Assembly: GCA_949361645.1 (NCBI GenBank)
Contig: OX442415.1
Coordinates: 27,245,092-27,309,091, forward strand
From: Spongilla lacustris
Taxonomy: Eukaryota > Porifera > Demospongiae > Spongillida > Spongillidae
Length of the DNA: 64,000 nucleotides
Direction: 5' to 3'
Shown here: positions 6,186-64,000 of the stretch, piece after piece
How the letters are laid out: every line of letters starts with the position of its first letter
Position numbering within the stretch: the first letter of the stretch is position 1
The notes under the pieces: generated by a model
The model's input: the letters and a program-made list of their open reading frames with translations, nothing else
Databases searched by the model: none
Told to the model about the DNA's origin: nothing
Made by a program: the position numbers and the translations under genes

Positions 6186-6204
6186 GCTATCTCACAAGGC
6201 TACC

Positions 6205-14723: not shown

Positions 14724-14725
14724 AT

Positions 14726-18430: not shown

Positions 18431-18439
18431 ATTGCATTA

Positions 18440-19282: not shown

Positions 19283-19289
19283 AATAAAA

Positions 19290-34510: not shown

Positions 34511-38563
<4,053 letters not shown>

Positions 38564-40030: not shown

Positions 40031-40523
40031 TATATATATATGGAACATTCTATGCGATTTTGATGCTTGTGATTTTATATTTATAGCATCCAATCCAAAG
40101 CGCAATATCTTTCAAACGGTTTACGCTCTTGACTTCCTATTTTCAGCACTTCATACTACACCATTTCTCTATGCTAAAATACATTTTGGAGTCTTGCACT
40201 TGCTCCGTGACAGTATTGCAACGTTCGATACCCCACCGGGTTCAAACCCACCATAACTTACTGTAGGAGTAATCAATTCGCTTCAAATTCGGTTTTTAAG
40301 TAGAGAGGTCCTATACCTATCGATTTGTTCTGTTCGTTAATTTTTATGTCATCCGTTACGGAGATACAGCGGCGCAAAGTTGGTACAAGTTTCCCGCTCG
40401 AATCGCGCCGTTGTACGTGCGTGAACCGCTTCCATACCAAAGTGTACATGAATATGCAACTACTTCCTGTGGGCTGAGACTTTGATAACTTATAGCCACA
40501 CCTATACTGCGCTAGCTAGCCGG

Positions 40524-40883
40524 GTAAGTATTTAATCTATCGTCCCTGTCACAGTTGATATTCGTTATCTTCTGTGTAGATAAACGATATGCATGGCGAC
40601 GTCCACTGAAGACAAGCTCGTAAGAGTTTCAATCGGCGGACGAGTTCGAGCGGTACGGATACGTCGATCGATATTCAAGATACATTCGACGAGGACGGGG
40701 AGATCGAGAACGGTAGAGACGGCGGTCATACCGCTGACGATGGTGGTTGCAGCCCAGGCCCGTAGCCAGGGGGGGTTCGGGGGGTTCGAACGAACCCCCC
40801 CTCAGAGGATAAAGGTCCAGCACTCCGCTTACGTGGAAGTACTACGGTGCCGCCGTGCAGGCAGCTCTCTAAGGCGGATTTAG
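40524..40883 (+). CDS. Leader intron and short open frame in the left arm of A
   Basis: A 56-bp intron-like segment (GTAAGTATTTAATC...TGTGTAG, 40524-40579) is followed by a frame from Met 40593 (MATSTEDKLVRVS, then GGRVRAVRIRRSIFKIHS). The frame is Arg-rich and continues until it is interrupted by the hAT relic at 40755. The right arm has the uninterrupted continuation (AKSLKEPPAPPPTYG) up to 49025, but the hAT at 49223 separates it from its own start. No known domain. B has the same 56-bp intron. Confidence 0.4.
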
Positions 40884-41044
40884 GCGATTAGGCTTCCCTG
40901 TCTAATAACGTACGTATAACGGTTAACCTGTATTTATTATTATAATTATCAAATTACGTCTCAATGCAATAATTAAAAAGCAATTTGCGCCGGTTTAATA
41001 ATTAATCTATACGCCGTCGCATTAATAATCGCCGGGCCGATCGA

Positions 41045-41275
41045 CTATGCCGGGTAGCTCCCAACAAAAGAAATGAGAGCGTGAACGAGCGGAGTGCTAG
41101 TGCTCTTCGAAGACTGCACAATTATATGAGAGCCTCGATGGGAAATAGCCGTCTTTCTAACCTTGCTCTCCTGCATATACATTATGACATGGACGTGGAC
41201 TTAGATGAAGTTGTCACACGCTATGCCCATTTGCACCCAAGGAAGCTTGAACTTGACTCTATTATCCGCCCTTAA
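41045..41275 (+). pseudogene. Fossil C-terminal (dimerisation) domain of a hAT transposase
   Basis: The frame NERSASALRRLHNYMRAS, then MGNSRLSNLALLHIHYD and a DLDEVVTRYA tail, matches the hAT family C-terminus (typically NERSFSALRRLKT...). The rest of the transposase has been deleted, so this element cannot move itself. Confidence 0.8.
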
Positions 41276-41408
41276 ATACTGTTAAAACACTCTGTCACTG
41301 TATACTAATTAATTGTGTTTGTATATAAATGTATAACCTGCCTAAATATGTAGTATTTTTCATGTGCCATTAATTCAAATTTCAATATTTAACTAGTAAA
41401 CTATGTAA

Positions 41409-41793
41409 CTATGTATGAGTCAACCATCTAAGTAGAGCTAGGTCTGAGACTTTAGCACGGGGACCTGCCCTTGCAAGAAATGCTCTGCCATTCGAGCGCA
41501 CAAGGGAAAGGTTTAGTCTGGAATAAATGCTGTCCAGAGTGGTGGAAGTGGACTGAGGAGTTAACCTGGACTGAAAGGCGGGAAGCAAGTTTCTTGAAAG
41601 TGTCAGAGGCAAGTTGGTCCCAGGCCCCGAATGATTCAACAACAAGGGGTATGCAGCTCCAGCCTAGTTCTGCACAAATCCAGGAATTTGCTTGTATCTT
41701 TCGCTGTTCTGTGGCAAAAGCTGCAGAGCCTGCTGTGTGTCCCGCTTCGGAAACTATGTCAGGTTGACAAAGCAGCCATTGAATCAGAAGCAT
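41409..41793 (-). pseudogene. LINE-type polyprotein C-terminal fragment, copy 1
   Basis: The minus-strand frame has AGHTAGSAAFATEQRK, ICAELGWSCIPLVVESFGAW and KKLASRLS, clearly homologous to the fragment at 50171 (AAFAAEERK, CAELGWVCIPIAVETYGCW). A frameshift near 41560 moves the end (YSRLNLSLVRSNGRAFLARA) to another frame. Confidence 0.65.
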
Positions 41794-44700
41794 TGTTTTT
41801 TTTTTTAAGCGACGATCGATTTAGATTGCATAGCAAAACGACATGTTATGTTTAGCCCCTTCCCCTCTTTTCATATCAGCCAGCTCACCTTGGAAGGTCG
41901 CATGAAATTGAATTGCTCATCTTGTTTATTTTTCGGTTGTGAGTGTTTTGGTACATGTACATGCATGTGTCTGCAAACTATTAATTCTTTTGTGTTGCCA
42001 AATCAATGTTTTCAAAAGCTTCCGCGCGAAGCGCGGGAGGGGGCACTTCCCCCTCCCGCACCCTCCCCCTTTTGGTGACCCACGCCCACTTTGGGTCCAC
42101 AATTTTTTTTTTCGAACCCCCCCTTTTCCTGACCAGGCTACGGGCTTGCAGCCGCTAAATCACTAAAAGAGCCACCGGCCCCGCCCCCCACATATGGGCC
42201 CTCACTACTACACTGCAAGTCCAGACAGCAGCCCCGCATAACCAACAGATGAAGCCACCAACCCGCACTACCTATGGAACCACCCGCCCATATCAGACCC
42301 TACACAGGAGCCACCAACTAACCATTGGGGTCAGCCTCCACAATACCAGTGGAGACACTGCTAACCTCTTGCTGCAAATGGAGTTGGCAGCCCTCACATA
42401 TACATGTACCAAGGGAAGCCACACATTCCCCCTCCCAGCACTACCAAGCCCTCACTGCAAATGGCCTTACATCTACATGTAAGCAGAACCCCATTGGTCC
42501 AGTCCCCCTCCCCACCCCCACTAATGATTGTTCGCTGCAAGTTCAAGAGGCCAATGGAGCCATCCCCACACAGCAAAACCACCAGACTCCATCACTACTG
42601 CCTCGCGAACTTACAAATAATACGTCCACACTGCAAGTAGTGAAGCCTCCAGCTCTCATATAGATGGGGCTTTCAGACCCTGCACTGGCAGCAGGGGTGC
42701 CCACACACGCAGGGGTCAATAGGTATGATGCCAGTGGAGATGCCAGCTGTCACACTACAAGCAATTAAGCTGCAGTCCCCAAATTTCAGGGGAAGCCATG
42801 AACTGCATGTACATGCACTGAACGTACACTGACCATTAGCCCTCACTGCACGTGCCCCACACACTGGGACCAGCCCCCACGGCCTTCCTGCCCACTACCT
42901 GTTCTTCATAGCATGTAGAGTCAACGGCCCAGGGACCAATGGTGTCAGCTCCCTCATTGCAAGCAGACAGTAATGCAAGTGAACTTAAAAGCCCTCACTG
43001 CATGCATTCTCCAGTTAGCACCAGTGGAGCCATATTCCAGATGGAGTTATCAGACTGCCAGCAGGGAAGCCACCAGCTACTAAACTTCCCGGGGTCATTG
43101 GGGGACTCCACAATAAGGCATGCTGGTGCATAGAGTCACACTGCAAGTGGAAATGGCACCCCTCCACAATTTCAGGAGCCATGAACTGGTTGCCCCCACT
43201 ATCTATGGAACCATTTACCCTCACTTAGCAGCCCCCACATACGGTGCCTTTTCTCCCACTACCTATCCTTCACTGCAGGTTTCAGCAGCCTTCTCAGCCT
43301 TCTCACTTCAAGTACACCATACCAGTGACCATTCACTGCAAGTTCAAGGGGCCAATGGTCACACATCAGAACCACCATCCCCCATTGATCGCTGCAAGTG
43401 AACTCAACAGCTGCACGATGCAAGTGAATTTACATTTAATGCCTCCACACTGCAAGTTTTGGAGCCACCAGCTCTCTTACAGATGGGGTTACCAGACCCT
43501 GCATTGCCAGCAGGGGTGCCCACACATGCTGGGGTCAATAGGTATGAGGCCAGTGGAAATGCCAACCCTCGCATCACAAGCCATGAACTACATGTACTGT
43601 GCGTACACCTGCCCCTCTCCAAACACTACCAATGGAACCTATAGGCCTCCTGCACACTACCTGTCCTTCACTGCACGCTGAGTCAACGTATGCCCCAGGG
43701 ACAGTATCATTGGGACCATTAATGCAAATGAACTTAATAGCCCCACACTTCAGGTCCAGTTAGCACCAGCAGTTATCGGACTGTCAGCAAGGGAGCAACC
43801 AGCTGCCAAACACCCCAGGGTCATTGGGGCCCCCAGAATAATCATGCTGGTGGAAACTCACAACAGCGCAATTGCAATTGGCACCCCCACAATATTAGGG
43901 GAGCCATGAACTGGAGCCCCCCCCCCACTATCCATGGAACCATGAGCCCTCACTTAGCAGGAGTGTCTCCCACTACATGTACCTATCCTTCACTGCATGT
44001 TTCATCAGCCAAAATTACCAGCCATATCACTACAAGTGCACCATACCAATGAACAGGTTCAAGGGGCCAATGAGACCATTGGAGCCATTCTCACACATTA
44101 GAACCACCATCCCCCATAACTGCAAGTGAACTTAACAGCCGCACAAGACATGTGAACTTACATTTAATAACTACACACAGCTAATAGTAGAGCCACCGGC
44201 TCTCTCACAGATGGGGTTACCAGAACTACACTGCCCACATAAGCTGGGGTCAATAGGTATGTGCCAATGGAGATGTCTGCAATCGCACTACAAGTACTCC
44301 CCAAATTTCAGAGGAAACCATGAACTACATGTACTGTGCATACACCCACCCTACTCCAATCACTACCAGTGGAACCATTAGCCCTCACTGCAACTACCCC
44401 ACACACTGGGACCCACCCCCACGGCACTCCTGCCCACAATCTGTCTTTCACTGCGTGTTGAGTTAATGGCCCATGCAGGGGTCAGCACCATCACTGCAAG
44501 CGAGCAGAACTATTAATGCAAGTGAACGTAATAGCCCCACACTACAAGTCCAGTTAGCACCAGTGGAGCAATTACAGAGATGGAGTATCAGACAGTCAGC
44601 GAGGGAACCACCAGCTGCTAAAACCCCCTGAAGGGTCATTGGGGGGGCCCCACAATAATGCATGCTGATGGAGACTCCAGCTCTCACACCGTACTGCAAT

Positions 44701-47700
44701 ACAAATTCGGCACCCCCAACAATATTAGGGGAGCCATCAGCTGGAGTCACACATGCCCCCACTACCCATGGAACCATTAGCCCTCACTTAGCACCCCTCA
44801 CATACGGGGCTAGCCCCCACAGCCCTGTCTCTCACTACCTATCTTCTACTACAAGTTGTATCCGAGGTCCAGGAGCGAACGTGCAAGGCTATCCCCCACT
44901 CACTAGCCCTCTCACTGCAAACACACAATACCAGTGGAACCACACTCAACCAGCCCTCCCACCCACCCACCTCCTTACGTATGGAGTACTCAGACTTCCA
45001 GCAGGGGAGCCACCAGCTGCCACATTACCGGTCCTCACAATACTAGACCCCATCATGTGTACATGCAATGGAGCCATTAGCTCTCACTGCATGTGAACTT
45101 ACATGGTGCAGGCCCCAAACACTGGGGCCAGCCACAATGGCCCCCTATCCTAGCCCCACGCAGTACAATCACCAGCTCCTCACTGCACATGGAACCACTA
45201 CCTGTGAAACCAAACCCCCTACCTGTGAAACCATTAACCCCCACACTACAAGAGGACTTACACTGTCAGGGGAACCATCGACTACTAGTGGAGCTACCAG
45301 CCCGCATTGGACAAATGGGAACACCACCACTGTAGCAGCCTCCGTTTGTAGAGTGTACATGTCTATACATTTTGAACACATTTGTGTTGTATACCGAGGC
45401 ATGTACAGAGTAATTTTATCTGGGGTGGACATGAAGCCATCCTGTTAGTGGTGAATATAGTTACCAGCCCTATCGGTACTGATTGCGGTGGGACTGCACC
45501 CGTGGTTGGTTTACATTTGTATATACACAAGCGGAGGGCTTTTTGAAAAGAATAAAGCTTACTGGGTAGTGCTTTACAATGTTGAGATACATGTAAGTGC
45601 CACTTAGAATTGCATGCGCAGTCACAGCTACAATTTGGCACGGTGAAGCATAGGAATTCATGACCACTAATTAATATAACTCCACTTGTGTGGTCATTAA
45701 TTCTGATGTCTTCACCATGCCACACATTCTAAATGGCACTTACATGTTTTGCTACTTGTACCTCAACAATGTAAAGCACTACATGTAGTTCCCAGCTGTA
45801 GGTTGTAGGTTTTTTCTTTTCAAAAAGCCCTCTGCTTGTGTATATAAACCAACCACCGCAATCAGTACCGATAGGGCTGGTAACTATATTCACCACTAAC
45901 AGATGGCTTCAGATAAAATTACTCTGTACATGCCTCGGTACATGCACAAACATTTAGTTCAGATCTACAACACAAAAACGTATACATGTAGGCTGCTTCA
46001 GTGGTGGTGTTCCCATTTGTCCAAAGCGGGCTGGTAGCTCCACGAATGGTTCCATTGGTAGTGTTTGGAGAGGGGCAGGTGTACCCACAGTACATGTAGT
46101 TCATGGCTTGTGGTGCGAGGGTTGGCATCTCCACTGGCATCATACCTACTGACCCCAGCTTGTGTGGGCACCCCTGTGGCAATGCAGGGTCTGGTAACCC
46201 CATCTGTAAGAGAGCTGGTGGCTCCACTACTTGCAGTGTGGAGGCATTAAATGTAAATTTACTTGCATCATGCGGCTGTCGAGTTCACTTGCAGTGATCA
46301 TGGGGGATCCATGATGATTCTGATGTGTGACCATTGGCCCCTTGAACTTGCAGTGAATGGTCACTGGTATGGTGCACTTGTAGTGAGAAGGCTGAAAAGG
46401 CTGCTGAAACTTGCAGCGAAGGATAGGTAGTGGGAGATAGGGCACCGTATGTGAGGGCTGCTAAGTGAGGGTGAATGGTTCCATAGATAGTATAGGGGCA
46501 TATGTGGCTCCAGTTCATGGCTCCTGAAATTGTGGGGGGGTGCCATTTCCACTTGCGGTGTGAGGCAGCTGACGTCTCCATGCACCAGCATCCATTATTG
46601 TGGGGCCCCCCAATGACCCCGGGGAGTTTAGCAGCTGGTGGCTTCCCTGCTGGCAGTCTGATAACTCCATCTGGAATATGGCTCCACTGGTGCTAACTGG
46701 AATGCAGTGTGGGCTTTTAAATTCACTTGCATTACTGTCTGCTTGCAATGAGGGAGCTGACTCCATTGGTCTGGGCTGTTGACTCTACGTGCAGTGAAGG
46801 ACAGGTAATGGGCTGGAGGGCCGTTGGGGCTGGTCCCAGTGTGTGGGGTACTTGCAGTGAGGGCTAATGGTCAGTGTTTGGAGAGGAGCGGGTGTACGTT
46901 CAGTGCATGTAGTTCATGGCTTCCTCTGAAATTTGGGGAGTACTTGTAGTGCGATGGGTGCATGGCATCTACACTGGCACATACCTATTGCCCCAGCTTA
47001 TAAGGGCAGTGCGGCAGTTCTGGTAACCCCATCTGTGCGAGAGCTGGTGGCTCTACTATTAGTAGTGTGTTAGTATTAAATGTAAGTTCACTTGTCTTGT
47101 GCGGCTGTTAAGTTCACTTGCAGTTATGGGGAATGGTGGTTCTAATGTGTGAAAATGGCCATGGCCCCTTGAACCTGCGGTAAATGTTCATTGGTATGGT
47201 GCGGCACTTGTAGTGATAATGGCTGGTAATCTTGGCTGATGAAATATGCAGTGAAGGATAGGTACATGTAGTGAAGGATAGGTACATGTAGTGGGAGATA
47301 CTCCTGCTAAGTGAGGGCTCATGGTTCCATGGATAGCGGGGGGGCTCCAGTTCATGGCTCCCCTAATATTGTGGGGGTGCCAATTGCAATTGCGCTGTTG
47401 TGAGTTTCCACCAGCATGATTATTCTGGGGGCCCCAATGACCCTGGGGTGTTTGGCAGCTGGTTGCTCCCTTGCTGACAGTCCGATAACTGCTGGTGCTA
47501 ACTGGACCTGAAGTGTGGGGCTATTAAGTTCATTTGCATTAATGGTCCCAATGATACTGTCCCTGGGCATACGTTGACTCAGCGCGCAGTGAAGGACAGG
47601 TAGTGTGCAGGAGGCCTATAGGTTCCATTGGTAGTGTTTGGAGAGGGGCAGGTGTACGCACAGTACATGTAGTTCATGGCTTGTGATGCGAGGGTTGGCA

Positions 47701-50094
47701 TTTCCACTGGCCTCATACCTATTGACCCCAGCATGTGTGGGCACCCCTGCTGACAATGCAGGGTCTGGTAACCCCATCTGTAAGAGAGCTGGTGGCTCCA
47801 AAACTTGCAGTGTGGAGGCATTAAATGTAAATTCACTTGCATCGTGCAGCTGTTGAGTTCACTTGCAGCGATCAATGGGGAATGGTGGTTCTGATGTGTG
47901 ACCATTGGCCCCTTGAACTTGCAGTGAATGGTCACTGGTATGGTGCACTTGAAGTGAGAAGGCTGAGAAGGCTGCTGAAACCTGCAGTGAAGGATAGGTA
48001 GTGGGAGAAGGGGCACCGTATGTGGGGGCTGCTAAGTGAGGGTAAATGGTTCCATAGATAGTGGGGGCATCCAGTTCATGGCTCCTGAAATTGTGGAGGG
48101 GTGCCATTTCCACTTGCAGTGTGACTCCATGCATCAGCATGCATTATTATGGGGTCCCCAATGACCCCGGGAAGTTTAGTAGCTGGTGGCTTCCCTGCTG
48201 GCAGTCTGATAACTCCATCTGGAATATGGCTCCACTGGTGCTAACTGGAGAATGCATGCAGTGAGGGCTTTTAAGTTCACTTGCATTACTGTCTGCTTGC
48301 AATGAGGGAGCTGACACCATTGGTCCCTGGGCCGTTGACTCTACATGCTATGAAGAACAGGTAGTGGGCAGGAAGGCCGTGGGGGCTGGTCCCAGTGTGT
48401 GGGGCACGTGCAGTGAGGGCTAATGGTCAGTGTTTGGAGAGGGGCAGGTGTACGTTCAGTGCATGTACATGCAGTTCATGGCTTCCCCTGAAATTTGGGG
48501 ACTGCAGCTTAATTGCTTGTAGTGTGACAGCTGGCATCTCCACTGGCATCATACCTATTGACCCCTGCGTGTGTGGGCACCCCTGCTGCCAGTGCAGGGT
48601 CTGAAAGCCCCATCTATATGAGAGCTGGAGGCTTCACTACTTGCAGTGTGGACGTATTATTTGTAAGTTCGCGAGGCAGTAGTGATGGAGTCTGGTGGTT
48701 TTGCTGTGTGGGGATGGCTCCATTGGCCTCTTGAACTTGCAGCGAACAATCATTAGTGGGGGTGGGGAGGGGGACTGGACCAATGGGGTTCTGCTTACAT
48801 GTAGATGTAAGGCCATTTGCAGTGAGGGCTTGGTAGTGCTGGGAGGGGGAATGTGTGGCTTCCCTTGGTACATGTATATGTGAGGGCTGCCAACTCCATT
48901 TGCAGCAAGAGGTTAGCAGTGTCTCCACTGGTATTGTGGAGGCTGACCCCAATGGTTAGTTGGTGGCTCCTGTGTAGGGTCTGATATGGGCGGGTGGTTC
49001 CATAGGTAGTGCGGGTTGGTGGCTTCATCTGTTGGTTATGCGGGGCTGCTGTCTGGACTTGCAGTGTAGTAGTGAGGGCCCATATGTGGGGGGCGGGGCC
49101 GGTGGCTCTTTTAGTGATTTAGCGGCTGCAACCACCATCGTCAGCGGTATGACCGCCGTCTCTACCGTTCTCGATCTCCCCGTCCTCGTCGAATGTATCT
49201 TGAATATCGATCGACGTATCCGCAGTGCCAGGTTAACCGGGGCGCAGGTGGCGCAAATGCGCCAGGCCCACCGAAGGTAGGGGCCCATTAATCCACATAT
49301 GTACACGCCTACAATCGATAAATTTTATTACCTAATTAGCTAGGTATATGTTAATAATTAACTGCATAGAAGAATTAAGCGCGAGCGCCGTGCGTGACGA
49401 TCATGACAAGTGAAGTGGCAATTAATATCACCGGCCTTATTGCCAATTATTGCGCACTGAAGTATACTATTTGCCAATTGTTTCAGTTCTTTTGTTTTGC
49501 TTCAGTATCTTTGGATTTCGCATTCAATTTGATTGCCTATACCACGCTTTGATGTCTTCAATAAAGAAACATTTGAGTGGCTATGAAAAGCGGCGGAAAA
49601 AAGCAGACATCGAAGCCTCTGTTTCGAAGCATCCTAAAATCAGTTCGTTTTTTTCTGCAGCTAGCTCTCCTCCGTCCGAGCCATCTGAGTCTTCATCTGC
49701 TGCTGACAATGCTGTAACAGTTGTCGCTCATCATGTCTGTGATGTTAGTTCAGCCGTAGTACATACAGAGGCACCTCTTTGTATTGAAGAAAGTTTTCAA
49801 GTTCTTGCACGGGATGAAATGGAGGCTTCCCAATGCGAAGTCGGCAACACAGTTCATCAGGATAGTGCATTATGCCTCCATCAGATGGAAACAGATCCTG
49901 CTTTGTGGTCTATTAGTGAGAAAATGGTGCAGTACTGGTTGCCAGAGCTATGTAGAAACAGGGATGGAATTTATACTAATTCTACAAGGCAAGGGATTAA
50001 AAAGTCAAACAGGTAAACAGCGCATTGCACGCTCAGTATAATATAATAAAAGAAGAGCTCGTACATTCACACTATATAGATATTTATTATTATT

Positions 50095-50735
50095 ATTATA
50101 ATTATAGGTATATATATAATACAATACAGATAAACAAGCACATAACCTACCACCTAGACAAAATAATATATCAGTAGCCTGTGTCTGAGATGGCCCTTGA
50201 AAGAAGAGCCCTCACATTTGCCCTAACAAGGGTCATGCTCAACCTCTGATATAGGGCTGTGATAGCTGCAGACTTTGGGCAGTTCTGACGTGTGGCCAAG
50301 CGAGAGGCTAGCTGCGATAGTGCCCACTTTGCTTCAGTGCCCCAACACCCATAGGTCTCCACAGCTATTGGGATGCATACCCAACCCAGTTCTGCACATT
50401 TGGAGTCATTGGCCTTATGCTTCCTCTCCTCTGCTGCAAAGGCTGCAGACCCTGCTGTCACACTCGCTTCAGGTAAATTACTTGAGGTTAGCGGTGATGT
50501 GACAGTAAAGTCAAATGCAGCAGGCTTTCCCATCATCCAGTTTGCTGCCAGGACATCAGCTGGTCGCGTGTGGCGCTCCTCAGATGTAAAGCCATACCCA
50601 ACCTCCACCTGAGCACTTATGCAGGCTCTCCTACATGACTCTGCAAATACATCCCGGAGCCTGTTGTGACGAATGACTACATCGCCCCCATGCTTGCATG
50701 TCAAAGCATGATGGCCTATAATTATAATTATAATT
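50095..50735 (-). mobile_element. 5'-truncated LINE fragment inside the transposase intron
   Basis: The minus-strand frame (about 50171-50730) has GHHALTCKHGGDVVIRHNRL, a CRRACISAQVEVG stretch and RPADVLAANW..GKPAAFDFTV, a pattern I know from the C-terminus of invertebrate non-LTR retrotransposon proteins (possibly a nuclease-like domain). ATT-type microsatellite lies at both its ends (50080-50110, 50715-50740). No reverse transcriptase is left. Confidence 0.6.
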
Positions 50736-51112
50736 ATTACATATACTGTATATAGGCACACATTTGCATATGAAATTAAATTAAGCGCGTATGTATATTG
50801 AAAACTAGCATGCATAAATATTTCTTACTCTGCCCAGGAAACTAAAGGATACAGCACTCACAACACTGTCTCCAAATGGAGAAAAGGTTGTAAGAAGTTG
50901 GCTGATATAATCCTCATCAACAGGATGCGTGTTTTGCTTTGTCTGCAAACTGTTCTCTACAATTAGTACAAGCAATTCCTCCAGTCTGGCAACAACAGGT
51001 TTTGATTCGTGGGATCATATTGGACGGCTTAATGATCATGAACGTTCTTTGCAACACAGAGAATCACTTTCAAAATATGCTATTCGCCAAGCAAAATGTG
51101 AGACAATAGACC

Positions 51113-52285: not shown

Positions 52286-55200
52286 AATAGACCGCTGTAT
52301 CATCGATAGTTATGCAAGGGAAAATTCATACTGGAAAGAGGTTTTGAGGAGAGTAGTTTCAGTAGTTACGTTTCTTGTCACTCGTGGACTAGCTCTTCGA
52401 GGCAGCAATGAGGTCTTTGGATCAGAGCACAACGGGAATTACCTTGGATGTTTAGAGTTGCTTGCTGAATATGATCCGTTTCTTGCACAACACATAGAGA
52501 GGTATGGTAATAGGGGACGTGGCAATCCATCTTATTTATCATCTACAATATATGTGAAGAGTTTGTTTTGCTCATGGCAGAGGAATTAAACCAAGTTATC
52601 ATTAACGAGATTGCTTCTGCAAAGTATTATTCGTTTAGCATTGACTCAACACCAGACATCTCACATACGGACCAGCTGACATTCACAGTGCGCTACGTTC
52701 ATGAAGATGGAATGCCAACTGAGCGTTTTCTAAAGTTTGAAGAAATACATTCCCACACTGGTTTAAATTTGTTCAAAACGATAATAGAAGCTCTTAAAGA
52801 TTTTAAGCTTGATCTCAAAGATTGTCGAGGTCAATCTTATGACAATGCTAGCAACATGTCTGGAAAATATTCTGGTGTGCAGGCCAGGGTATTGGAAGAA
52901 AATGATAAAGCTATTTATATTCCATGCATGGCGCACTCGTTGAATCTATCGGGAGCCTCGGCAGCAGAATCATGTGTCAATGCTGTAACCTTTGTCGGAT
53001 TTGTTGAGAAGTTGTATGTTTTTTTCTCTGCTTCAACACATCGATGGAATATTTTGAAAACAGTACTCGGTGCTTTGGATACAGATGAAAGACAACATTT
53101 GCCAAAACGGCTTTGTGATACCAGGTGGTCAAGTAGATCTGATGCTCTGAAGTCCTTATCGCAGCACTATACGACGTATACCGTAATGTTCTACAGCAAA
53201 TTGCTGATGACTCCTTGCAGAAATGTGATACAAGATCAGAAGCACTTTCACTGGCAAATATAATGGACACACTAGAAACTGTTTTCATGACTGTGTTTTG
53301 GAATGCACTCCTTAAAAGAATACATGAAAGCAGCCAGCTTCTCCAGTCAAGTACAATAGAAATAGGATCTGCCATTGCTACATTGAAGTCTCTTCTAAGA
53401 TTTCTTGAGGCTCAAAGAAGCTTATTTGATGATTATAAGGCTACAGCAGTCGCTAGTAGCAAGACTGGCTGCTTTAAAGAAGTGCGACTGCGACGGGTAA
53501 AGCGTGTCTTTGGTGACTCCAGTGAGCCCGAGGTCGTGATGTCTTCAGAAGAGAAATTTAAAATTGAAACGTTCTACGCTATAATTGATCGTATTGTGAC
53601 TGATCTCAACGTTTCCTATTCGTAAGACACCACGAACTTGAGAATTCTGAAGTGAAAGATTCCTTGTCTCGATTAACATCTTTCTATTCCGATGATCTTT
53701 GATGCCGAAATATTTGATGAATGGTTGCAGTGGACAGAATTTGAGAAGGCTCTATATCCGAAAGCTGCATCGAGAAGGCAGGCACATGAAATGTTGTCCA
53801 CCTTAAAAGAACATCATGCCGAAAGTGCCTTTCCGAATATATTTATTGCACTTCGAATTTTTTTAACTCTTCCAGTATCAAATTGTACTGGTGAGCGGTC
53901 ATTCAGCCACCTTAAGAGAATAAAAAATGCTCTCCGCTCGACAATGGGTCAAGTACGTCTGTCAAGCTTAACGATTTTAAGCATAGAATCTGAACTTGTT
54001 CGACAAATTGACTTTTCTAAGCTAATTGCCAACTTTGCCGAAGTCAAATCACGTCGTAAAGCTGTTTAAAAGTACACAGCTGCATACTATTATTAAGTTG
54101 ATCTCATCAATTGGTGATTGTATAGCCTATTAGTAAGCCAGTTCAAATACCAATGTATGGAGATAAGTAATTGCGGGATGATTGTAAGAAAGGATTTATT
54201 TTTATTTTTGAAAACCGCATTAATTAAGAAACGAAAATTTCAAATGTGACGCCTGCGCATAGCGTTCCACAGTACGACGCTGTACGCGGGAAGCAGTTTC
54301 GCCCCACTTTTGCTATACTCCAGGGGCCCATTAAATTTACCCTGCGCCAGGCCCATTATATGGTTAATCCGGCACTGCGTATCCGTACCGCTCGAACTCG
54401 TCCGCCGATTGAAACTCTTACGAGCTTGTCTTCAGTGGACGTCGCCATGCATATCGTTTATCTACACAGAAGATAACGAATATCAACTGTGACAGGGACG
54501 ATAGATTAAATACTTACCCGGCTAGCTAGCGCAGTATAGGTGTGGCTATAAGTTATCAAAGTCTCAGCCCACAGGAAGTAGTTGCATATTCATGTACACT
54601 TTGGTATGGAAGCGGTTCACGCACGTACAACGGCGCGATTCGAGCGGGAAACTTGTACCAACTTTGCGCCGCTGTATCTCCGTAACGGATGACATAAAAA
54701 TTAACGAACAGAACAAATCGATAGGTATAGGACCTCTCTACTTAAAAACCAAATTTGAAGCGAATTGATTACTCCTACAGTAAGTTATGGTGGGTTTGAA
54801 CCCGGTGGGGTATCGAACGTTGCAATACTGTCACGGAGCAAGTGCAAGACTCCAAAATGTATTTTAGCATAGAGAAATGGTGTAGTATGAAGTGCTGAAA
54901 ATAGGAAGTCAAGAGCGTAAACCGTTTGAAAGATATTGCGCTTTGGATTGGATGCTATATATATAAAATCACAAGCATCAAAATCGCATAGAATGTTCCA
55001 TATATATATATGGGACAGTTTCCGAGAAAATGTCGCTTCGCATATATATATAATGTTATAAAAATACTTCTCTTTTGAATCGCTATATCTTCCGAACGAT
55101 TAACGCTATCAACTTCCTATTTTCAACACTTCATACTACACCATTTCCCTATGGCAAAATATATTTTGGAGTCTTGCAATTGCTCCGTGCCAGTATTGCA

Positions 55201-55504
55201 ACGTTCGATACCCCACCGGGTTCAAACCCGCCATAACTTTCTGTAGGGATAATCAAATCGCTTCAAATTCGGTTTGTAGGTAGAGAGGTCCTATACCTAT
55301 CGATTTGTTCTGTTCGTTAATTTTTATTTCATCCGTTACGGAGATACAGCGGCGCAAAGTTGGTACACGTTTCCCGCTCGAATCGCGCCGTTATACGTGC
55401 GAGGCCCGCTTCCAGTCATCAAAGCACATGAATATGCAACTACTTCCTGTGGGCCGATACTTGGATAACTTATAGCCACACCCATACTGCGCTAGCTAGA
55501 TCTG

Positions 55505-55730
55505 ATGGGTAAGTATTTAATGTATTGTCCCTGTCACAGTTTTTATTCGTTATCTCCTATTTAGATAACGGATCTGGCAAAGACAGCACGCTCGCAAGAG
55601 TATCAGTCGGCGGACGAGTTCGAGCGGTACGGATACGACGATCGATATTCAAGATACATTCGACGAGGTGGGGAGATTGAGAACGGTAGTGACGGCGATT
55701 ATACTACTGACGATGGTGGTTGTAGGGAGT
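55505..55730 (+). CDS. Leader exon with 56-bp intron in the left arm of B
   Basis: ATGG precedes a 56-bp intron (55509-55564, GTAAGT...CCTATTTAG). The spliced frame gives MDNGSGKDSTLARVSVGGRV and the same Arg-rich segment as in A, but stops soon after because of a one-base difference (CGAGGTGGGG against CGAGGACGGGG). A second frame over the same DNA (EYQSADEFERYGYDDRYSRY, to a stop at 55731) is also open. I cannot tell which, if any, is translated. The mirror copy is at about 62595-62757. Confidence 0.35.
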
Positions 55731-56033
55731 AAGCAGCTCCTAAACGACTAAGAGCCAGCAGCCCTAGTCTCGTACCCAGACCCTGATTCTCACAGCTGCT
55801 GATGGACACCAGCCCCACCCCCACATATGCCTCACTACATTGCAAGTCCAGACAGCAGCCCCGCATAACCAACAGCAAACACCACCAACCCGCACTACCT
55901 ATGAACCACCTGCCCATATCAGACCCTACACACGAGCCAATGGGGTCAGCCTCTACAATACCAGTGGAGCCACTATTATCCCTCTCGCTGCAATTGCCCC
56001 CACAATTTCAATCAATGGAAGCCACACATCCCA

Positions 56034-56459
56034 ATGGACTTACAGCAGAACCTAGCTGACTGTGTCCGGCAGTTTGGCCAGGATGTCACTTGTGTGTCAC
56101 AGCTGTACCAGGACTGGGATGCTTTCTTGGGCCAGTGGTTTGGTCCTCTGGTTGGCCCAGGACACTACCGCACATTTGAGTTTGATCAAGACCACCCTGG
56201 TGTCATGAGGATGAAGACCTTGCCATCAGACACAAACCCCACCGAGGTAACCATGCTGAGGGCTGGAGTGGCCATAAAGGACATTAGGCTTATCAGAGCC
56301 AAGTGATGCCACCTGTTATTACCCCGAGTGGATTTCCCTAACGCGGTCACTGTACCTGTACGAGAAGGTGAAGGAATATACGTACGTGACCCCAAGAAAA
56401 GAGACAAGGTGTGTCCAAAGCCTTCACAAAGCTCAGAGGCCAACTCTTCCTATCCATGA
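56034..56459 (+). CDS. Coding-like stretch in the left arm of B, with an in-frame TGA
   Basis: The frame begins MDLQQNLADCVRQFGQDVTC, continues YQDWDAFLGQWFGPLVGPGH and PGVMRMKTLPSDTNP, reaches TGA at 56304 and then stays open in the same frame for about 50 more codons (LLPRVDFPNAVTVPVREGEG, then RDPKKRDKVCPKP) to 56459. Codon choice and composition look like a real protein on both sides of the TGA. No family recognised. The mirror copy is 61851-62471. Confidence 0.45.
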
Positions 56460-56567
56460 GGTAGTGCTTCATCCCATGCAGTAGCAGAACTCACTTACCT
56501 ACTGTTGAGGGTCATGAGTCTGCAGATTGACACTCACAGCAAATTGCAATAGCTGTGTTTCTGGCAG

Positions 56568-56701
56568 GAGAAAATGCAGACCCAGGTCTGAACTAATCCT
56601 TGCCTACCAATGCATTGTACATTTATGTGGCAAGAAGTATGCCAGTAGCCAGGCCTTGTCCCTGCACAAAAGAAACACTCACAAGCAGCCTGCTGTTCCA
56701 G
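56568..56701 (+). CDS. C2H2 zinc-finger exon in the left arm of B
   Basis: Between an acceptor (TTTCTGGCAG|G) and a donor (CCAG|GTGATG) lies a frame with one C2H2 finger: YQC-IVHL-C, 12 residues, H-KRNT-H. It is preceded by a basic stretch. It reads inward like the stretch at 56034, so the two may be exons of one gene, probably a DNA-binding protein of the element. The mirror copy in the right arm is about 61609-61742. Confidence 0.5.
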
Positions 56702-56889
56702 GTGATGAACACAGATTCCAGTGTTGACAAAGGAAGCCAGGGTCCACCCAAGCGCAGGCTGCAAGGCGTACGCTACAATCTGAAATTGACAGACCATTTT
56801 CCTGTTCGGTGTAAGGCAAGACGTACGGCACCCCAGCCGCACTGTATACTTACAACAAGACCAACAATGGTTCATAACAAATGAACCAT

Positions 56890-57950
56890 ATTGTGAGATG
56901 CATGCTTGTTTAAGGTCACCTCTGCAGTGTACACCATACATCTGTGTTGTTAAGGGGTTAACTTTGTATACCATGCATCTGTGTCATCAAGGGGTTACCT
57001 GTACACCATACATCTCTGTCATCAAGGGGTTACCTGTACACCATACATCTGTGTCATTAAGGGGTTAACTCTGTACACTTTGTGTAAGTGTTGTTAAGGT
57101 ATCACCTGTACACCATACATTTGTGTCATCAAGGGGTTACCTACATGTATACGTGTACCATACATGTGTCGTTAAGATGTTACCTCTACATGTATGTACA
57201 TGTATGGGTTGTTAGGGTATCACCTGACTGTACACCATACATCTGTGTCGTTAAGGGGTTACCTCTATGTACATGTATGGGTTGTTAAGGTATCACCTGA
57301 CTGTACACCATACATCTGTGTCATTAAGGGGTTACCTCTACGTACATGTATGGTCATCAAGGGGTTACCTGTACACCATACATCTGTGTCATTAAGGGGT
57401 TAACTCTGTACACTTTGTGTAAGTGTTGTTAAGGTATCACCTGTGCACCATACATTTCTGTTATCAAGGGGTTACCTACATGTATACGTGTACCATGCAT
57501 GTGTCGTTAAGATGTTACCTCTATGTACATGTATGGGTTGTTAGGGTATCACCTGACTGTACACCTTACATCTGTGTCGTTAAGGGGTTACCTCTATGTA
57601 CATGTATGGGTTGTTAGGGTATCACCTGACTTTACACCATACATCTGTATCATCAAGGGGTTACCTGTACACCATACATCTGTGTCGTACCTCTGTATAC
57701 CTTATGTATGTGTTGTTAAGGGGTTAATTACCTGTACACCATACATCTGTGTCGTTAAGGGCTCACCTCAGTACACTGTGCATCTGTGTCGTTAAGGGGT
57801 TACCTCTGTACACCATACATCTGTGTCATCAAGGGGTTACCTGTACACCATAGATCTATGTAGGGACACCTCTTTACACCTTATTTATGTGTTGTTAAGG
57901 GGTCACCTGTACGCCATACATCTGTGTCGTTAAGGGGTCTTTACTTTTCA
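56890..57950 (+). repeat. 34-36 bp minisatellite in the left arm of B
   Basis: About 30 imperfect units of the form GTACACCATACATCTGTGTC followed by RTTAAGGGGTTACCT. The array is mirrored in the right arm at 60665-61390. Confidence 0.85.
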
Positions 57951-58009
57951 CGTAATGGTTATGTAATCTATCTGATGCTGTGAAAATCTGGGTCTGGGTA
58001 CGAGACTAG

Positions 58010-58235
58010 TGATGATGGTGGTCCCATTTACACCCTGTATATGTGTCTGCTGTGAAATCAAATCCATGTTCCCATTTATACCATGTACTTGTGTATGTGG
58101 TGGGCTCAAATCTATGGTCCCATTTACACCATGTACTTTGTCTGTTGTGGGGTCAAATGCATGATCCACGCATTTACACTCTGTACTTGATTCTGTTTTA
58201 GGATCAAATCCATGGTCCCATTTGCACCCTGTAAT
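58010..58235 (+). repeat. Second minisatellite in B, about 55-bp units
   Basis: Four or so units of CCATTTACACCATGTACTTG followed by a TCTGTTGTGGGGTCAAAT-type tail. Shorter mirror at 60475-60600. Confidence 0.7.
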
Positions 58236-60180
58236 GACACAGGGTCCAATCGGGTTGGCTCCCTCACTGCAGGCGGTCAGAATGTCCAGTGCATGGAGCA
58301 GTTGTGGATGGAGTTATCAGACTGCCAGCAAAAGAGCAATCAGGTGCAAAAAAATCCTACAGGGTCATTGGGGCACCCACAATAATGCAGCTCTTACACT
58401 GCGATAGGAATCCGCACGCCCCACAATATTTGGGGAGCCATCAACTGGATTCACACATGCCCAATTTGCCCCATGGCCCTATCTCCCACTACCTATCCTC
58501 CTTTACTGCAAGTTATATCCGAGGCACAGGCCATCCCCTACTCAATAGCACTCTCAGTCCCCACACAACCAGCCCTCCCACCCACCCCTAAGCACCCCTC
58601 TTACATATGGTGTAATCATACTACCAACAGGCCGGAGAGCTTCCAGCTGCCACATTACCAGGGATGAATGGGGTCGTCACAAAACTAGACCTCAGCATGT
58701 GGAGTGGAACCTTGAACTGGAGCCAGCTCCAAACACTGGGGCCAGCCACAATGGCCCCCTATCTTAGCCCCACACAGCTCCTCACTGCAAATGCAAATGA
58801 AGCCACTACCTATGAAACCATTAACCAAGAGGACTTACTGTAGGAGTTACCAGCTCACATTGGACAAATGGGGATACCACCACTGGAGCAGCCTCCATTT
58901 GTAGAGTGTACATGCCTATATTTTTCTCTTCACACATTTTGTGTTGTACATGTAGATCTGAACTACTTTGACATGTACAGAGTAAATTTTATCTGGTGTG
59001 AAGCCATGCTTTTAGTGGTGAATATAGTTACCTGCCCTATCGGTATTGATTGCGGCTTGCAGAGGGCGTTTTGCCTACTGGGAACTACTGTACGCGAGTA
59101 GCGAAACATGGAAGTGCCATTTTGAATGTCACATAAATTGCATGCACGGTCACAGGTGCAATGTGGCACGGTGAAGACATCAGAATTCATGACCACACAA
59201 GTGGAGTTAATAGACCCTACAACTTTAATGGATTCATCAACTACCTAGCCCTAGGCTGGTGTTTCTGCAAAAATGTATGCATGTGCTACCGGGTACCGGT
59301 AGTGTATTATCATTCCATGTGTTGCTATTCGCTAGGCAAAACGCCCTCTAGATCTGCAAGCCTTGGTTGTCTATATACACCTACCACGGGTGCAGACCTA
59401 CCGCAATCAGTACCGATAAGGGCAGGTAACTATATTCACCAAAAACAGCATGGCTTCACACCAGATAAAATTTATTCTGTTAGTCTCTTACAGTAGTTCA
59501 AATCTACATGTACAACACAAAATATGTGAAGAGAAAAATATAGGCATGTACACTCTACAAATGGAGGCTGCTCCAGTGGTGGTATCCCCATTTGTCCAAT
59601 GTGAGCTGGTAACTCCACGATGGTTCCCTACTAGTAAGTCCTCTTGTAGTGTGGGTGTTAATGGTTTCATAGGCAGTGGCTTCATTTGCTTTGCAGTGTG
59701 GAGCTGTGTGGGGCTAGGATAGGGGGCCATTGTGGCTGCCCCAGTGTTTGGGGCCAGCTCCAGTTCAAGGTTCTACTCCACATGATGGGGTCTAGTTTTG
59801 TGACGACCCCATTCAACCCTGGTAAAGTGGCAGCTGGCAGCTCCCCAGTTGGCAGTCTGATTACACCATATGCAAGAGGGGTGTTTAGGGGTGGGTGCAT
59901 GGGTGGGAGGGCTGGTTGTGTTGGGACTGAGAGTGCTATTGAGTACGGGATGGCCTGTGCCTCGGATACAACTTGCAGTAAAGGAGGATAGGTAGTGGGA
60001 GATAGGGCCAGGGGGCAAATTGGGCATGTGTGAATCCAGTTGATGGCTCCCCAAATATTGTGGGGCGTGCCGATTCCTATCGCAGTGTGAGAGCTGCATT
60101 ATTGTGGGTGCCCCCAATGACCCTGTAGGATATCTTAGCACCTGGTTGCTCAGTCTGATAACTCCATCCGCAACTGCTCC
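58236..60180. repeat. Central palindrome of B and flanking CACTGCAAGT-type patchwork
   Basis: The inner arms carry the same words as A (ACTGCAAGT, CCAATGGAGCC-like) around the conserved core GAATATAGTTACC, GCCCTATCGGTA and GGCACGGTGAAGACATCAGA. The two halves diverge within about 120 bp of the centre, leaving a small loop. Confidence 0.7.
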
Positions 60181-60234
60181 ATGCACTGGACATTCTGTAA
60201 TAACATGCCGAAGGCATCTTTACATCAGGAGATA

Positions 60235-60431
60235 GTTAGGGCTTTAGGGTTAGGGTTGCGAGGCGTGAAGCGCCGACGATGCCGACTCCGAATCCGGGGT
60301 CAAATTGCACCCGCGGTGCTGTCCAGACACTCTTCATTGAAAAAACACCGCCTCGTCCCGAGTCCGCTTCGCGGACGAGGCGCCTTCGGCGCCGTACTGC
60401 GCGCTTCGCGCGCTATACTAACTCGCCTGAC
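60235..60431 (+). repeat. GC-rich dispersed repeat, copy 2, in the right arm of B
   Basis: TTTAGGGTTAGGGTTGCGAG, then GAAGCGCCGAC, CCGAATCCGGGG and GCGGACGAGGCGCCTTCGGC blocks in the same order as at 27165. It is absent from the corresponding place in the left arm of B, so it was inserted after the palindrome formed. Confidence 0.7.
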
Positions 60432-60474
60432 CACCTGCAGTGAGGGAGCCAATCTGATTGGACCCTGGTAATTA

Positions 60475-61390
60475 CAGGGTGTAAATGGGACCATGGATTT
60501 GATTCTATAACAGAATCAAGTACAGGGTGTAAATGCGTGGATCATGCATTTGACCCCACAACAGACACAAGTACAGGGTGTAAATGGGACCACCGTCGTC
60601 ACTAGTCTCGTACCCAGACCCAGATTTTCACAACATCAGATAACCATTATGTGAAAAGTAAAAAACCCTTAACGACACAGATGTATGGCGTACAGGTACA
60701 GGTAACCCCTTGATGACACAGATGTATGGTGCACAGAGGTAACCCTTTAACGACACAGATGCTCAGTGTACAGGTGAGCCCTTAACGACACAGATGTATG
60801 GTGTACAGGTAATTAACCCCTTAACAACACGTACATAAGGTATACAGAGGTATGGCACAGATGTATGGTGTACAGGTAACCCCTTGATGACACAGATATA
60901 TGGTGTAACGACACAGATGCACAGTTTACAGGTGACCCCTTAACGACACAGATGTATGGTGTACAGGTAACCCCTTGATGACACAGATGTATGGGGTACA
61001 CACAAGAGGTAACCCCTTAACAACACATACATAAGGTGTATAGAGGTAACCCCTTAACGACACAGATGTATGGTGTACAGTCAGGTGATACCCTAACAAC
61101 CCATACATGTACATACATGTAGAGGTAACATCTTAACGACACAGATGTATGGTACACGCATACATGTAGGTAACCCCTTGATGACACAAATGTATGGTGT
61201 ACAGGTGATACCTTAACAACACTTACACAAAGTGTACAGAGTTAACCCCTTAATGACACAGATGTATGGTATACAGGTAACCCCTTGATGACACAGATGT
61301 ATGGTGTACAGGTAACCCCTTGATGACACAGATGCATGGTATACAAAGTTAACCCCTTAACAACACAGATGTATGGTGTACACTGCAGAG
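60475..61390 (-). repeat. Minisatellites of B, right-arm mirror
   Basis: Reverse complements of the arrays at 56890 and 58010, with fewer units (for example CCCCTTAATGACACAGATGT). Copy number differs between arms while the flanking unique sequence is nearly identical. Confidence 0.8.
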
Positions 61391-61608
61391 GTGACCTTAA
61401 ACAAGCATGCATCTCACAATATGGTTCATTTGTTATGAACCATTGTTGGTCTTGTTGTAAGTATACAGTGCGGCTGGGGTGCCGTACGTCTTGCCTTACA
61501 CCGAACAGGAAAATGGTCTGTCAATTTCAGATTGTAGCGTACGCCTCGCGGCCTGCGCTTGGGTGGACCCTGGCTTCCTTTGTCAACACTGGAATCCGTG
61601 TTCATCAC

Positions 61609-61742
61609 CTGGAACAGCAGGCTGCTTGTGAGTGTTTTTTTTGTGCAGGGACAAGGCCTGGCTACTGGCATATTTCTTGCCACATAAATGTACAATGCAT
61701 TGGTAGGCAAGGATTAGTTCAGACCTGGGTCTGCATTTTCTC
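61609..61742 (-). CDS. C2H2 zinc-finger exon in the right arm of B (mirror copy)
   Basis: Same finger as at 56568, with an Arg-to-Lys change just before the second His region (HKKNTH). It reads inward on the minus strand. No known family. Confidence 0.45.
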
Positions 61743-61850
61743 CTGCCAGAAACACAGCTATTGCAATTCGCTGTGAGTGTCAATCTGCAGACTCATGACC
61801 CTCAACAGTAGGTAAGTGAGTTCTGCTACTGCATGGGATGAAGCACTACC

Positions 61851-62471
61851 TCATGGATAGGAAGAGTTGGCCTCTGAGCTTTGTGAAGGCTTTGGACACA
61901 CCTTGTCTCTTTTCTTGGGGTCACGTACGTATATTCCTTCACCTTCTCGTACAGGTACAGTGACCGCGTTAGGGAAATCCACTCGGGGTAATAACAGGTG
62001 GCATCACTTGGCTCTGATAAGCCTAATGTCCTTTATGGCCACTCCAGCCCTCAGCATGGTTACCTCGGTGGGGTTTGTGTCTGATGGCAAGGTCTTCATC
62101 CTCATGACACCAGGGTGGTCTTGATCAAACTCAAATGTGCGGTAGTGTCCTGGGCCAACCAGAGGACCAAACCACTGGCCCAAGAAAGCATCCCAGTCCT
62201 GGTACAGCTGTGACACACAAGTGACATCCTGGCCAAACTGCCGGACACAGTCAGCTAGGTTTTGCTGTAAGTCCATTGGGATGTGTGGCTTCCATTGATT
62301 GAAATTGTGGGGGCAATTGCAGCGAGAGGGATAGTAGTGGCTCCACTGGTATTGTGGAGGCTGACCCCATTGGCTCGTGTGTAGGGTCTGATATGGGCAG
62401 GTGGTTCCATAGGTAGTGCGGGTTGGTGGTGTTTGCTGTTGGTTATGCGGGGCTGCTGTCTGGCCTTGCAA
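61851..62471 (-). CDS. Coding-like stretch in the right arm of B (mirror, longer)
   Basis: Here the frame opens earlier than in the left arm: it starts MQGQTAAPHNQQQTPPTRTT, a Pro/Gln/Asn-rich lead (YGTTCPYQTL, QWGQPPQYQWSHYYP), then the same DVTCVSQLYQDWDAF block, the same TGA (62004-62006) and the same open continuation to 61851. The left arm has small deletions that break the Pro/Gln-rich lead, so this arm is the better-preserved copy. Function unknown. Confidence 0.45.
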
Positions 62472-63219
62472 TGTAGTGAGGCATATGTGGGGGTGGGGCT
62501 GGTGTCCATCAGCAGCTGTGAGAATCAGGGTCTGGGTACGAGACTAGGGCTGCTGGCTCTTAGTCATTTAGGAGCTGCTTACTCCCTACAACCACCATCG
62601 TCAGTAGTATAATCGCCGTCACTACCGTTCTCAATCTCCCCACCTCGTCGAATATATCTTGAATATCGATCGTCGTATGTCTTTGCCAGATCCGTTATCT
62701 AAATAGGAGATAACGAATAAAAACTGTGACAGGGACAATACATTAAATACTTACCCATCAGATCTAGCTAGCGCAGTATGGGTGTGGCTATAAGTTATCC
62801 AAGTATCGGCCCACAGGAAGTAGTTGCATATTCATGTGCTTTGATGACTGGAAGCGGGCCTCGCACGTATAACGGCGCGATTCGAGCGGGAAACGTGTAC
62901 CAACTTTGCGCCGCTGTATCTCCGTAACGGATGAAATAAAAATTAACGAACAGAACAAATCGATAGGTATAGGACCTCTCTACCTACAAACCGAATTTGA
63001 AGCGATTTGATTATCCCTACAGAAAGTTATGGCGGGTTTGAACCCGGTGGGGTATCGAACGTTGCAATACTGGCACGGAGCAATTGCAAGACTCCAAAAT
63101 ATATTTTGCCATAGGGAAATGGTGTAGTATGAAGTGTTGAAAATAGGAAGTTGATAGCGTTAACCGTTCGGAAGATATAGCGATTCAAAAGAGAAGCATT
63201 TTTATAACATTATATATAT

Positions 63220-64000
63220 ACAGGGTGATCCAAAAGTCGCGCAAAATCTTTGAATTGGCATAACTCCAGAACTGAACATGGTAAAATTATGCTGTTTAAA
63301 CCAAAAATCATGCCAATCATTAGCTTAAGTTATGAATGTGTAGTTATTAAAAGTTAGTTATCGGTTTATTAAAAACATGCCAATGCTATGATCAACATTC
63401 AGTACCACCCAGGAAGTGTGTAAAAATTAATTTTTATAACTATTAAAATTACTTATCACGTGATCTATCTTATATGTGGTTTTTGTGGGGAAACCCCTGC
63501 TGAAAGTCAAGCTATTGCAAATTAATCACCAATATCACGGTGAATCTATGCAAAGAAGCATCCAATAATCGTGCCAATGAACAGCTTACCATCTTGCGTG
63601 GTGACTAACGAAGCCAAACGTTTAAAACGGAGTTGATTAGTTTCTGTTAATTGACATTGTTAAAAGCTAACTTTGAATTATCAGACCTGTAGAGGAAGCC
63701 GTACTCTAATTGTGGAACTAACTTTTGTATTTTCTCCTCCACTGGAAACAAAGTTACAAACTGTCCAAGTTTGGCAGCGCTTACGCATGCGCGGAATTAT
63801 TGAACGAAAGTGGAACATGAATGTTTAGGTCTGCGTACGAGAGGTCTCACGTGAACACAATTGAATATTATCACATTCACGTGATACATTGCCGCTGTGC
63901 ACAACACAGCCCCACCCTCCTAAACTATGCTTCTCTTCAACATCATTGCGCGCACTTTTCATTCGCCTGCGCAAATGTGACCCATCAGATGCATGGGCAA
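63220..64000 (+). mobile_element. Start of a mariner/Tc-like element interrupting palindrome B
   Basis: After a TATATATA run the sequence turns to CAGGGTGATCCAAAAGTCGC, which closely resembles terminal repeats of Tc1/mariner-type elements, beside a TA. The last about 30 bp of B (seen at 55011-55040) should follow and do not appear before the window ends. No other terminus and no transposase frame lie within 63220-64000, so the element continues past the edge or is truncated. Confidence 0.5.

Follow-up and report, generated by a model that had tools for sequence, protein, structure and literature searches.

A 64,000-nucleotide stretch of the genome of the demosponge Spongilla lacustris (contig OX442415.1, here C1:27245092-27309091, within a 248.6-Mb assembly of 51 contigs), called the window below, was found to carry two adjacent giant palindromes, elements A and B. 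We consider it very probable that both are complete non-autonomous foldback derivatives of a DNA transposon with one 886-codon gene, which encodes a DUF7869 domain and C2H2 zinc fingers. The coordinates of the features are given in Table 1.

Self-comparison was used to examine the palindromic structure. It gave inverted pairs of 88.9-100% identity, as a preliminary description of this DNA had led us to expect. Element A measured approximately 8.4 kb once two nested insertions were subtracted. Its tip TGGAACATTCTATGCG at 40041 returned as an inverted copy at 54985-55000, and the inverted pairs were 40030-40663 with 55011-54378 (99.7%), 40656-40754 with 49222-49124 (100%), and 42146-44810 with 49131-46442 (92.4%). 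Element B measured approximately 8.2 kb without its nested insertion and gave the pairs 55043-55585 with 63220-62678 (99.6%), 55633-57394 with 62678-60906 (97.2%), and 58278-59055 with 60197-59401 (88.9%). Inverted arms made up 92.0% of B, counted up to 63215. The later insertions that had been described were also recovered. Two lay in A, the longer of which encoded hAT-type protein fragments. A further palindrome, element C, was found inserted in a TA run of the right arm of B. Because of this insertion B appeared to end at 63220; an exact TGGGACAG tip was found within its final 36 bp at 78649-78684, beyond the window end. Inside the window, the boundaries proposed earlier were accurate to within about ten bases, but B does not end at 63219. 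The idea that A and B had common ends did not hold, since A ended in TGGAACATTCTATGCG and B in TGGGACAGTTTCCGAG. Their common subterminal core (88% over 659 bp), leader intron, and parts of the centre were all present.

The arms had the same order in both elements. From the tip, about 480-500 bp were followed by a putative GT-AG intron, an exon-like start, and the interior. The leader intron was 56 bp long in most arms and 54-60 bp overall. Its signals were lost in loci L025, L062, and L064, and no such intron was found in L065. The exon after the intron was frame-shifted in both A and B relative to the coding relative described below. The open exon frame of the window, itself one base off the coding relative, contained a stop in 79 of 150 scored exon copies, and the exon-1 remnant of A gave no Pfam match. 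Two types of interior were distinguished. Type 1 (A and L009-L012) was built of units near 720-820 bp, type 2 (B, L025, L027, and L072) of shorter units, and their centres were related. Among the long elements listed, the longest stop-to-stop frames reached 327 aa (L010-L012), 195 aa (L009), 180 aa (L025), and 179 aa (B), and the frames tested gave no Pfam match.

A coding relative was reached through a 90-codon open stretch of B and its protein relatives. The stretch occurred in both arms of B (56034-56303 and, inverted, 62007-62276). DUF7869 was present in three of eight public relatives tested, and C2H2 fingers in two. The coding relative lay at C1:2152190, adjoining a run of palindromic elements; it started with TGGGACAGTTTCCACG, nearly the same tip, ten TA bases beyond a TGGGACAG tip in locus L007. 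Its first 484 bp shared 88.7% identity with B and 89.1% with L009, with a range of 86-90% when L010 and L025 were included, and its identity to A was 83.0% over 581 bp. The common tip, subterminal region, and leader were 83-90% identical to those of A, B, L009, L010, and L025. The protein matched DUF7869 (4e-17), with a C2H2 finger below the Pfam cut-off in the part scanned, and a public match was identical to it over 177 residues.

Pieces of this gene were found in the palindromes. An exon-1 remnant was present in A and B, and codons 585-886 were matched, with frameshifts, in both arms of B and in L025, L027/28, and L072. These codons were not found in A, L009, or L010, and beyond the exon no remnant of the DUF7869/C2H2 gene was detected in A-type elements. 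The inward-reading stretches that the preliminary description had treated as coding belong, at least in B, to a real gene, but intact coding was not supported. Complete, open versions of the 90-codon stretch also occurred in L072, in each arm of L025, and in the left arm of L027; in the right arm of L027 the stretch was divided between two loci. It was conserved no better than the flanking sequence, and dN/dS in 15 comparisons gave no clear signal of selection either way. No intact gene was found elsewhere among the candidates: the unpaired exon copies (L062-L065), the 2.9-kb tip pair of L061, the 5.0-kb element L073, and L072, one member of the most numerous subfamily, lacked such a gene or were truncated or interrupted. 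Judged from these sequence matches, the coding relative is likely the parent of the palindromes. The matches of the outer arms and of codons 585-886 suggested that the palindromes are foldback derivatives of the 5' end, with the last third of the gene added in type 2.

Copies were then counted across the genome. The B-type tip TGGGACAGTTTCCGAG, of the TGGGACAG type, gave 629 exact copies (317 + 312), and the reversed control gave 0. With up to two mismatches the tip was found twice in the window, against 0.05 expected by shuffling. The lists of tips that follow cover the first 100 of each type (163 in total for the A type and 138 for the C type). The 84 B-type tips listed on C1 gave 16 inward, 4 outward, and 2 parallel neighbours within 20 kb. 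Nine of these inward pairs spanned 0.5-0.83 kb, one 3.7 kb, five 8.3-10.2 kb, and one 19.7 kb. The A tip (TGGAACRTTCTATGCG) occurred in 84 + 79 copies and formed 32 inward pairs (64 of 100 tips) 7.8-18.2 kb apart, with 3 in -+ and 1 in ++ orientation. The exon arms, of which 150 of 874 candidates were scored, gave 46 +- pairs (92 arms) within 20 kb, with 4 -+, 1 --, and 0 ++. Tip-pair spacing by itself is no proof of a palindrome, and the sequences of nine long elements were read (A, B, C, L009, L010, L011, L012, L025/26, and L027/28). All nine had inverted arms; the right end of L012 was diverged short-element sequence. In the seven that were measured (all except A and L012), 91-98% of the bases lay in arms of 89-98% mean identity. 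The family also includes members of 0.3-0.85 kb, which fit the size of miniature inverted-repeat transposable elements (MITEs). The preliminary description had proposed multi-copy mobile elements and had named a lack of other copies as the finding that would speak against them. The 629 tips, and the identity of 99.7% between L010 and L011, were what we found instead.

The relation between the arms was examined next to the relation between the elements. L010 and L011 were 99.7% identical over 8.6 kb at different loci with different flanks and in opposite orientation, and the two halves of L012 were about 99.2% identical to L010. When 20 outer arms were placed in a tree, those of the left and right side paired well for A, B, L009, and L025, and weakly for L027 (88/74). 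L010-left joined L011-right and L012-left, and L010-right joined L011-left. The outer arms of L009 were identical over 673 columns. Arm divergence was 2.7% in the outer part of L010 and 7.6% in the inner arms of A, and ranged from 0 to about 11% in most elements. Because the arms grouped by element in most cases and by side in L010, L011, and L012, these results fit movement of whole elements with slow, incomplete homogenisation of the arms, for which gene conversion would be the mechanism.

Several observations weigh against this interpretation. The far end of the coding element lies beyond the part read, so its own tip pair was not seen; no inverted copy of its start was present within the 4.3 kb read. 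We take DUF7869 to be a probable transposase from its position and from RNase-H-like motifs judged by eye. The predicted structure of a DUF7869 relative (pLDDT 38) was too poor to use. The long elements read as sequence number just nine, and 58 of 150 exon arms and 36 of 100 listed A tips were unpaired. No additional tip-like sites were found in the interior, and those inside the arms were not above chance. The right arm of L027 differed from L025 by 1.0% but from the left arm of the same element by 1.7%, counter to simple homogenisation. The target duplication was a weak signal. The same two bases stood outside TGGG...CCCA in 15 of 16 inward pairs of up to 10 kb (13 TA, one AA, one TT), where mismatched pairs gave an expectation of 11.3. 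A duplication of 4 bp fitted 14 of 16, against 10.4 expected, and one pair failed at both lengths. On the supporting side, 84 of 100 listed flanks ended in TA (59 of 75 distinct), 35 of them in TATATA. The T ahead of GGG was present in 629 of 640 ends, and 2 bp is therefore favoured over 4 bp. A TA duplication of 2 bp is likely, if weakly resolved.

The literature was consulted for related systems. The foldback architecture is already known, and it is the size that is unusual here; no foldback transposon with arms longer than 2 kb was found in the accessible literature, which excluded subscription papers and Repbase. The elements agree with the foldback class in having long arms that make up most of their length and tandem repeats inside the arms (A and L009: near 720-820 bp; B: shorter; C: a 27-bp type). 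Copies were present at different loci, with the weak duplication signal described above. Tetris/DAIBAM of Drosophila virilis has arms of up to 1,735 bp and three structurally complete copies (PMC4079207). It is likewise non-autonomous, with long inverted arms containing tandem repeats (about 220 bp in Tetris) and a short relative that shares its ends, but it has no coding partner, whereas here the arms are near 4 kb, inward pairs number in the dozens, and there is a coding relative. Galileo, a Drosophila element of the P superfamily, has arms that reach about 1.26 kb, flanking sequences of 7 bp, and a P-type transposase (PMC3573991). It resembles the present elements in its foldback-like form, its variable repetitive arms, and the recruitment of internal regions into them. 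Its longest arms occur in copies without the transposase, a trait common to the elements here (PMC3573991). However, the arms here are about 3-6 times longer, the duplication is 2 bp (or 4 bp), and the partner is DUF7869. Tm1 of root-knot nematodes (Mutator/Foldback) shares composite repetitive arms and a family with small, large, and coding members, and differs in its 9-bp duplications and Phantom-like transposase (PMC3169594). MuTAnT, a Mutator-like element of Medicago, inserts into TA microsatellites and has short non-autonomous relatives beside one coding element, as here, but it has a mudrA-like transposase (PMC4486113), and no 7-10-bp duplication was seen in our pairs. What differs here is the scale, the small duplication, the DUF7869 partner, and the fact that a second tip family, that of C and unrelated to the first, also has giant palindromes.

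Known superfamilies were tested as sources of the enzyme. The coding relative matched DUF7869 and C2H2 alone, which argues against Tc1/mariner, and none of six DDE_3 loci had these tips. Matches on C1 within 8 kb of a TGGGACAG tip numbered one of 10 for DDE_3 and one of 27 for DDE_1, both at least 6 kb off; C was not tested apart. A Transposase_1 search gave no match, and its control was likewise silent. For PIF/Harbinger or ISL2EU, DDE_Tnp_4 was bounded by these tips at none of 30 loci (of 139 matches), stood near a tip at none of 16 places on C1, and was absent from the coding relative. The DDE_Tnp_4 elements with tip GACCAGTTGCGGCGCG are another family (3.1 kb, 608-aa frame); this tip was common to nine loci looked at, among them L039 (C11:3875317). 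Mutator-like elements (MULEs) make duplications of 8-11 bp. Duplications of 7, 8, 9, and 10 bp were found in none of the 16 pairs (11 bp was not tested), which speaks against MULEs and also the P superfamily, with its 7-8 bp. MITEs are short, under about 1 kb, and A and B exceed 8 kb. DUF7869 (PF25273) was found in the coding relative and in the public relatives mentioned above, and Pfam gives it no function. NCBIfam and solved-structure searches returned nothing useful, and no paper in the accessible literature, without subscription papers, names DUF7869.

The palindromes with their tips and copies, the nesting, the near-identity of some copies, the grouping of the arms, and the coding relative with its remnants in B were all observed; the role of DUF7869 as the transposase, cut-and-paste movement, gene conversion, and the sequence of events are what we infer. 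The gene of the coding relative has 886 codons, with an acidic start, the DUF7869 domain, and the C2H2 zinc fingers. Both ends of a palindrome would be inverted copies of the 5' end of this gene (tip, subterminal region, leader, and exon 1), and the arms of B in addition retain its decayed last third. The arms may have grown to at least 4 kb through internal tandem duplication and minisatellite growth. The parent protein, probably a transposase, would recognise the common ends and bring about insertion at TA, frequently within TA runs, and therefore elements would line up and nest. The element would move whole, and its arms would slowly be made alike between moves, most simply by gene conversion.

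Other explanations were weighed against this. Long inverted repeats are a known class of artefact, and fold-back chimaeric molecules or mis-joined haplotypes in the library or assembly could imitate them. However, the arms differed within most elements, each insert of A sat in one arm alone, the tips were fixed, the flanks differed, and full-length copies recurred at further loci, so an artefact is extremely unlikely. A palindrome might instead be rebuilt at each insertion from a single arm, whose copy is folded back by way of, for instance, a hairpin or a template switch. This would account for the older elements, most of whose arms were closer to each other than to those of other elements, and for the identical outer arms of L009. 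We regard it as very improbable, since L010, L011, and L012 share the same left-right differences at separate loci, which indicates that they moved whole. A third view treats the loci as useful to the host: inward transcripts would give long hairpin RNA as input to small-RNA silencing, and the palindrome would be kept by selection. The maize Mu killer locus is a precedent for hairpin silencing (PMC3440606), the leader intron is present in both arms, and the remnants of the parent gene in B could be a silencing target. The loss of intron signals in some arms (L025, L062, and L064) speaks against it, and the copy number and recent insertions are as expected of a parasite; this view is quite improbable.

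The palindromes could also have taken up, as cargo, parts of a DUF7869/C2H2 gene that has no role in movement, and be mobilised by another, TA-targeting enzyme of Tc1/mariner type. The TA target, the lack of a Pfam function for DUF7869, and the other transposase families in the genome would suit this. However, the tip, subterminal region, and leader in front of the intact gene match those of the palindromes, the gene has the same exon 1 as they do, and no DDE_1, DDE_3, or DDE_Tnp_4 match with these tips was found among those examined. Cargo is therefore improbable, and foldback derivatives of the DUF7869 transposon remain the reading that we prefer. A broader proposal is that DUF7869-zinc-finger proteins are transposases of an undescribed DNA-transposon superfamily that has TGGGACAG-type ends and targets TA, and whose giant palindromes move whole and stay palindromic by arm conversion. 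Since parts of the transposase gene would read inward from each arm, the palindromes could make long hairpin RNA against the parent. Taken as a whole, this proposal is doubtful.

Element C is a third giant palindrome in the same genome, of a tip family unrelated to A and B. We take its tip, CAGGGTGATCCAAAAGTCGCGC, to be mariner-like. The tip occurred in 67 + 71 copies, and within 30 kb the listed tips gave 39 +-, 3 -+, and 3 -- pairs. The inward pairs were 5.0-25.9 kb long (median 15.9 kb) and included 78 of the 100 listed tips. The arms of C were about 7.7 kb long, and about 1.4-6.1 kb of the left arm was a 27-bp-type minisatellite among the matches listed. Of 168 arm candidates, the best 40, which include two from C itself, were all 100% identical (rounded) over 500-501 bp, which suggested that C spread recently. 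A 5.0-kb relative of C (L073, C6:1138409-1143419) had 1.35-kb arms 99.3% alike, about 82% similarity to C, and a longest frame of 128 aa.

Other features of the window were also recorded. Two more short palindromes with other tips lay at 15914-16206 and 30676-30956 (91% and 93% self-complementary). A 1650-aa open frame at 9791-14743 (-), by eye a Ty3/gypsy-type polyprotein, was flanked by 175-bp direct repeats (9670-9844 and 14726-14900, 98% identical). An inverted pair at 20683-21756 and 27921-28925 (85-88% identical) resembled a duplicated membrane-protein gene, with public relatives up to 93% identical. A 24-bp coding-like minisatellite at 6187-6790 (LPPPSQNY repeat) was open in several frames. 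When the window was scanned for tRNAs and for Rfam families (gathering threshold), there were no matches.

Table 1. Positions of the palindromes, their parts and relatives (window coordinates unless marked C1).
Feature	Position	Strand	Remarks
Short palindrome, ~0.85 kb	18436..19285	.	variant tips TGGGACTGTGTCCAGC / TGGGACAGTGTCCAGC; ~81% identical to family outer arm over 136 bp
Short element, 271 bp	37306..37576	.	TGGGACAG-type tips
Element A, giant palindrome	40041..55000	.	tips TGGAACATTCTATGCG; type-1 interior with degenerate tandem units near 720-810 bp
Putative 56-bp GT-AG leader intron, A left arm	40524..40579	+	
Exon-1 remnant, A left arm	40593..40748	+	52-codon open stretch MATSTEDK...; frame-shifted relative to MATTDDELVVYHSADEFEW of the coding relative
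Later insertion, A left arm, 1.4 kb	40755..42148	.	uninterrupted site seen in right arm
Later insertion, A right arm, 5.2 kb	49223..54377	.	8-bp duplication CGTATCCG; uninterrupted site seen in left arm
Putative leader intron, A right arm	54462..54517	-	
Short TA run, ten bases, separating A from B	55001..55010	.	
Element B, giant palindrome	55011..63220	.	tip TGGGACAGTTTCCGAG at 55011; type-2 minisatellite-rich interior; last 36 bp at 78649-78684
Putative leader intron, B left arm	55509..55564	+	
Remnant of DUF7869/C2H2 gene, codons 585-886, B left arm	56034..56874	+	inward-reading; frameshifts; first 90 codons open
Remnant of DUF7869/C2H2 gene, codons 585-886, B right arm	61436..62276	-	inward-reading
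Putative leader intron, B right arm	62699..62754	-	
Element C, palindrome, 15,428 bp	63221-78648 (C1:27308312-27323739); in window 63221..64000 (first 780 bp)	.	tips CAGGGTGATCCAAAAGTCGCGC
Intact 886-codon DUF7869/C2H2 gene (L007/L074/L075)	C1:2152190-2155422		stop at C1:2155422; behind TGGGACAG-type tip

Instability in dividing cells is the general expectation for long, near-perfect palindromes. Many palindromes of 8-17 kb move and persist in this genome despite that expectation, and they offer a natural system for the replication and repair of giant hairpins, arm-to-arm gene conversion, and foldback growth. The coding relative makes the role of DUF7869 testable, as well as the silencing of, or competition with, the parent by its foldback derivatives. 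If DUF7869 is indeed an undescribed transposase, the finding would go beyond a size variant of foldback elements.

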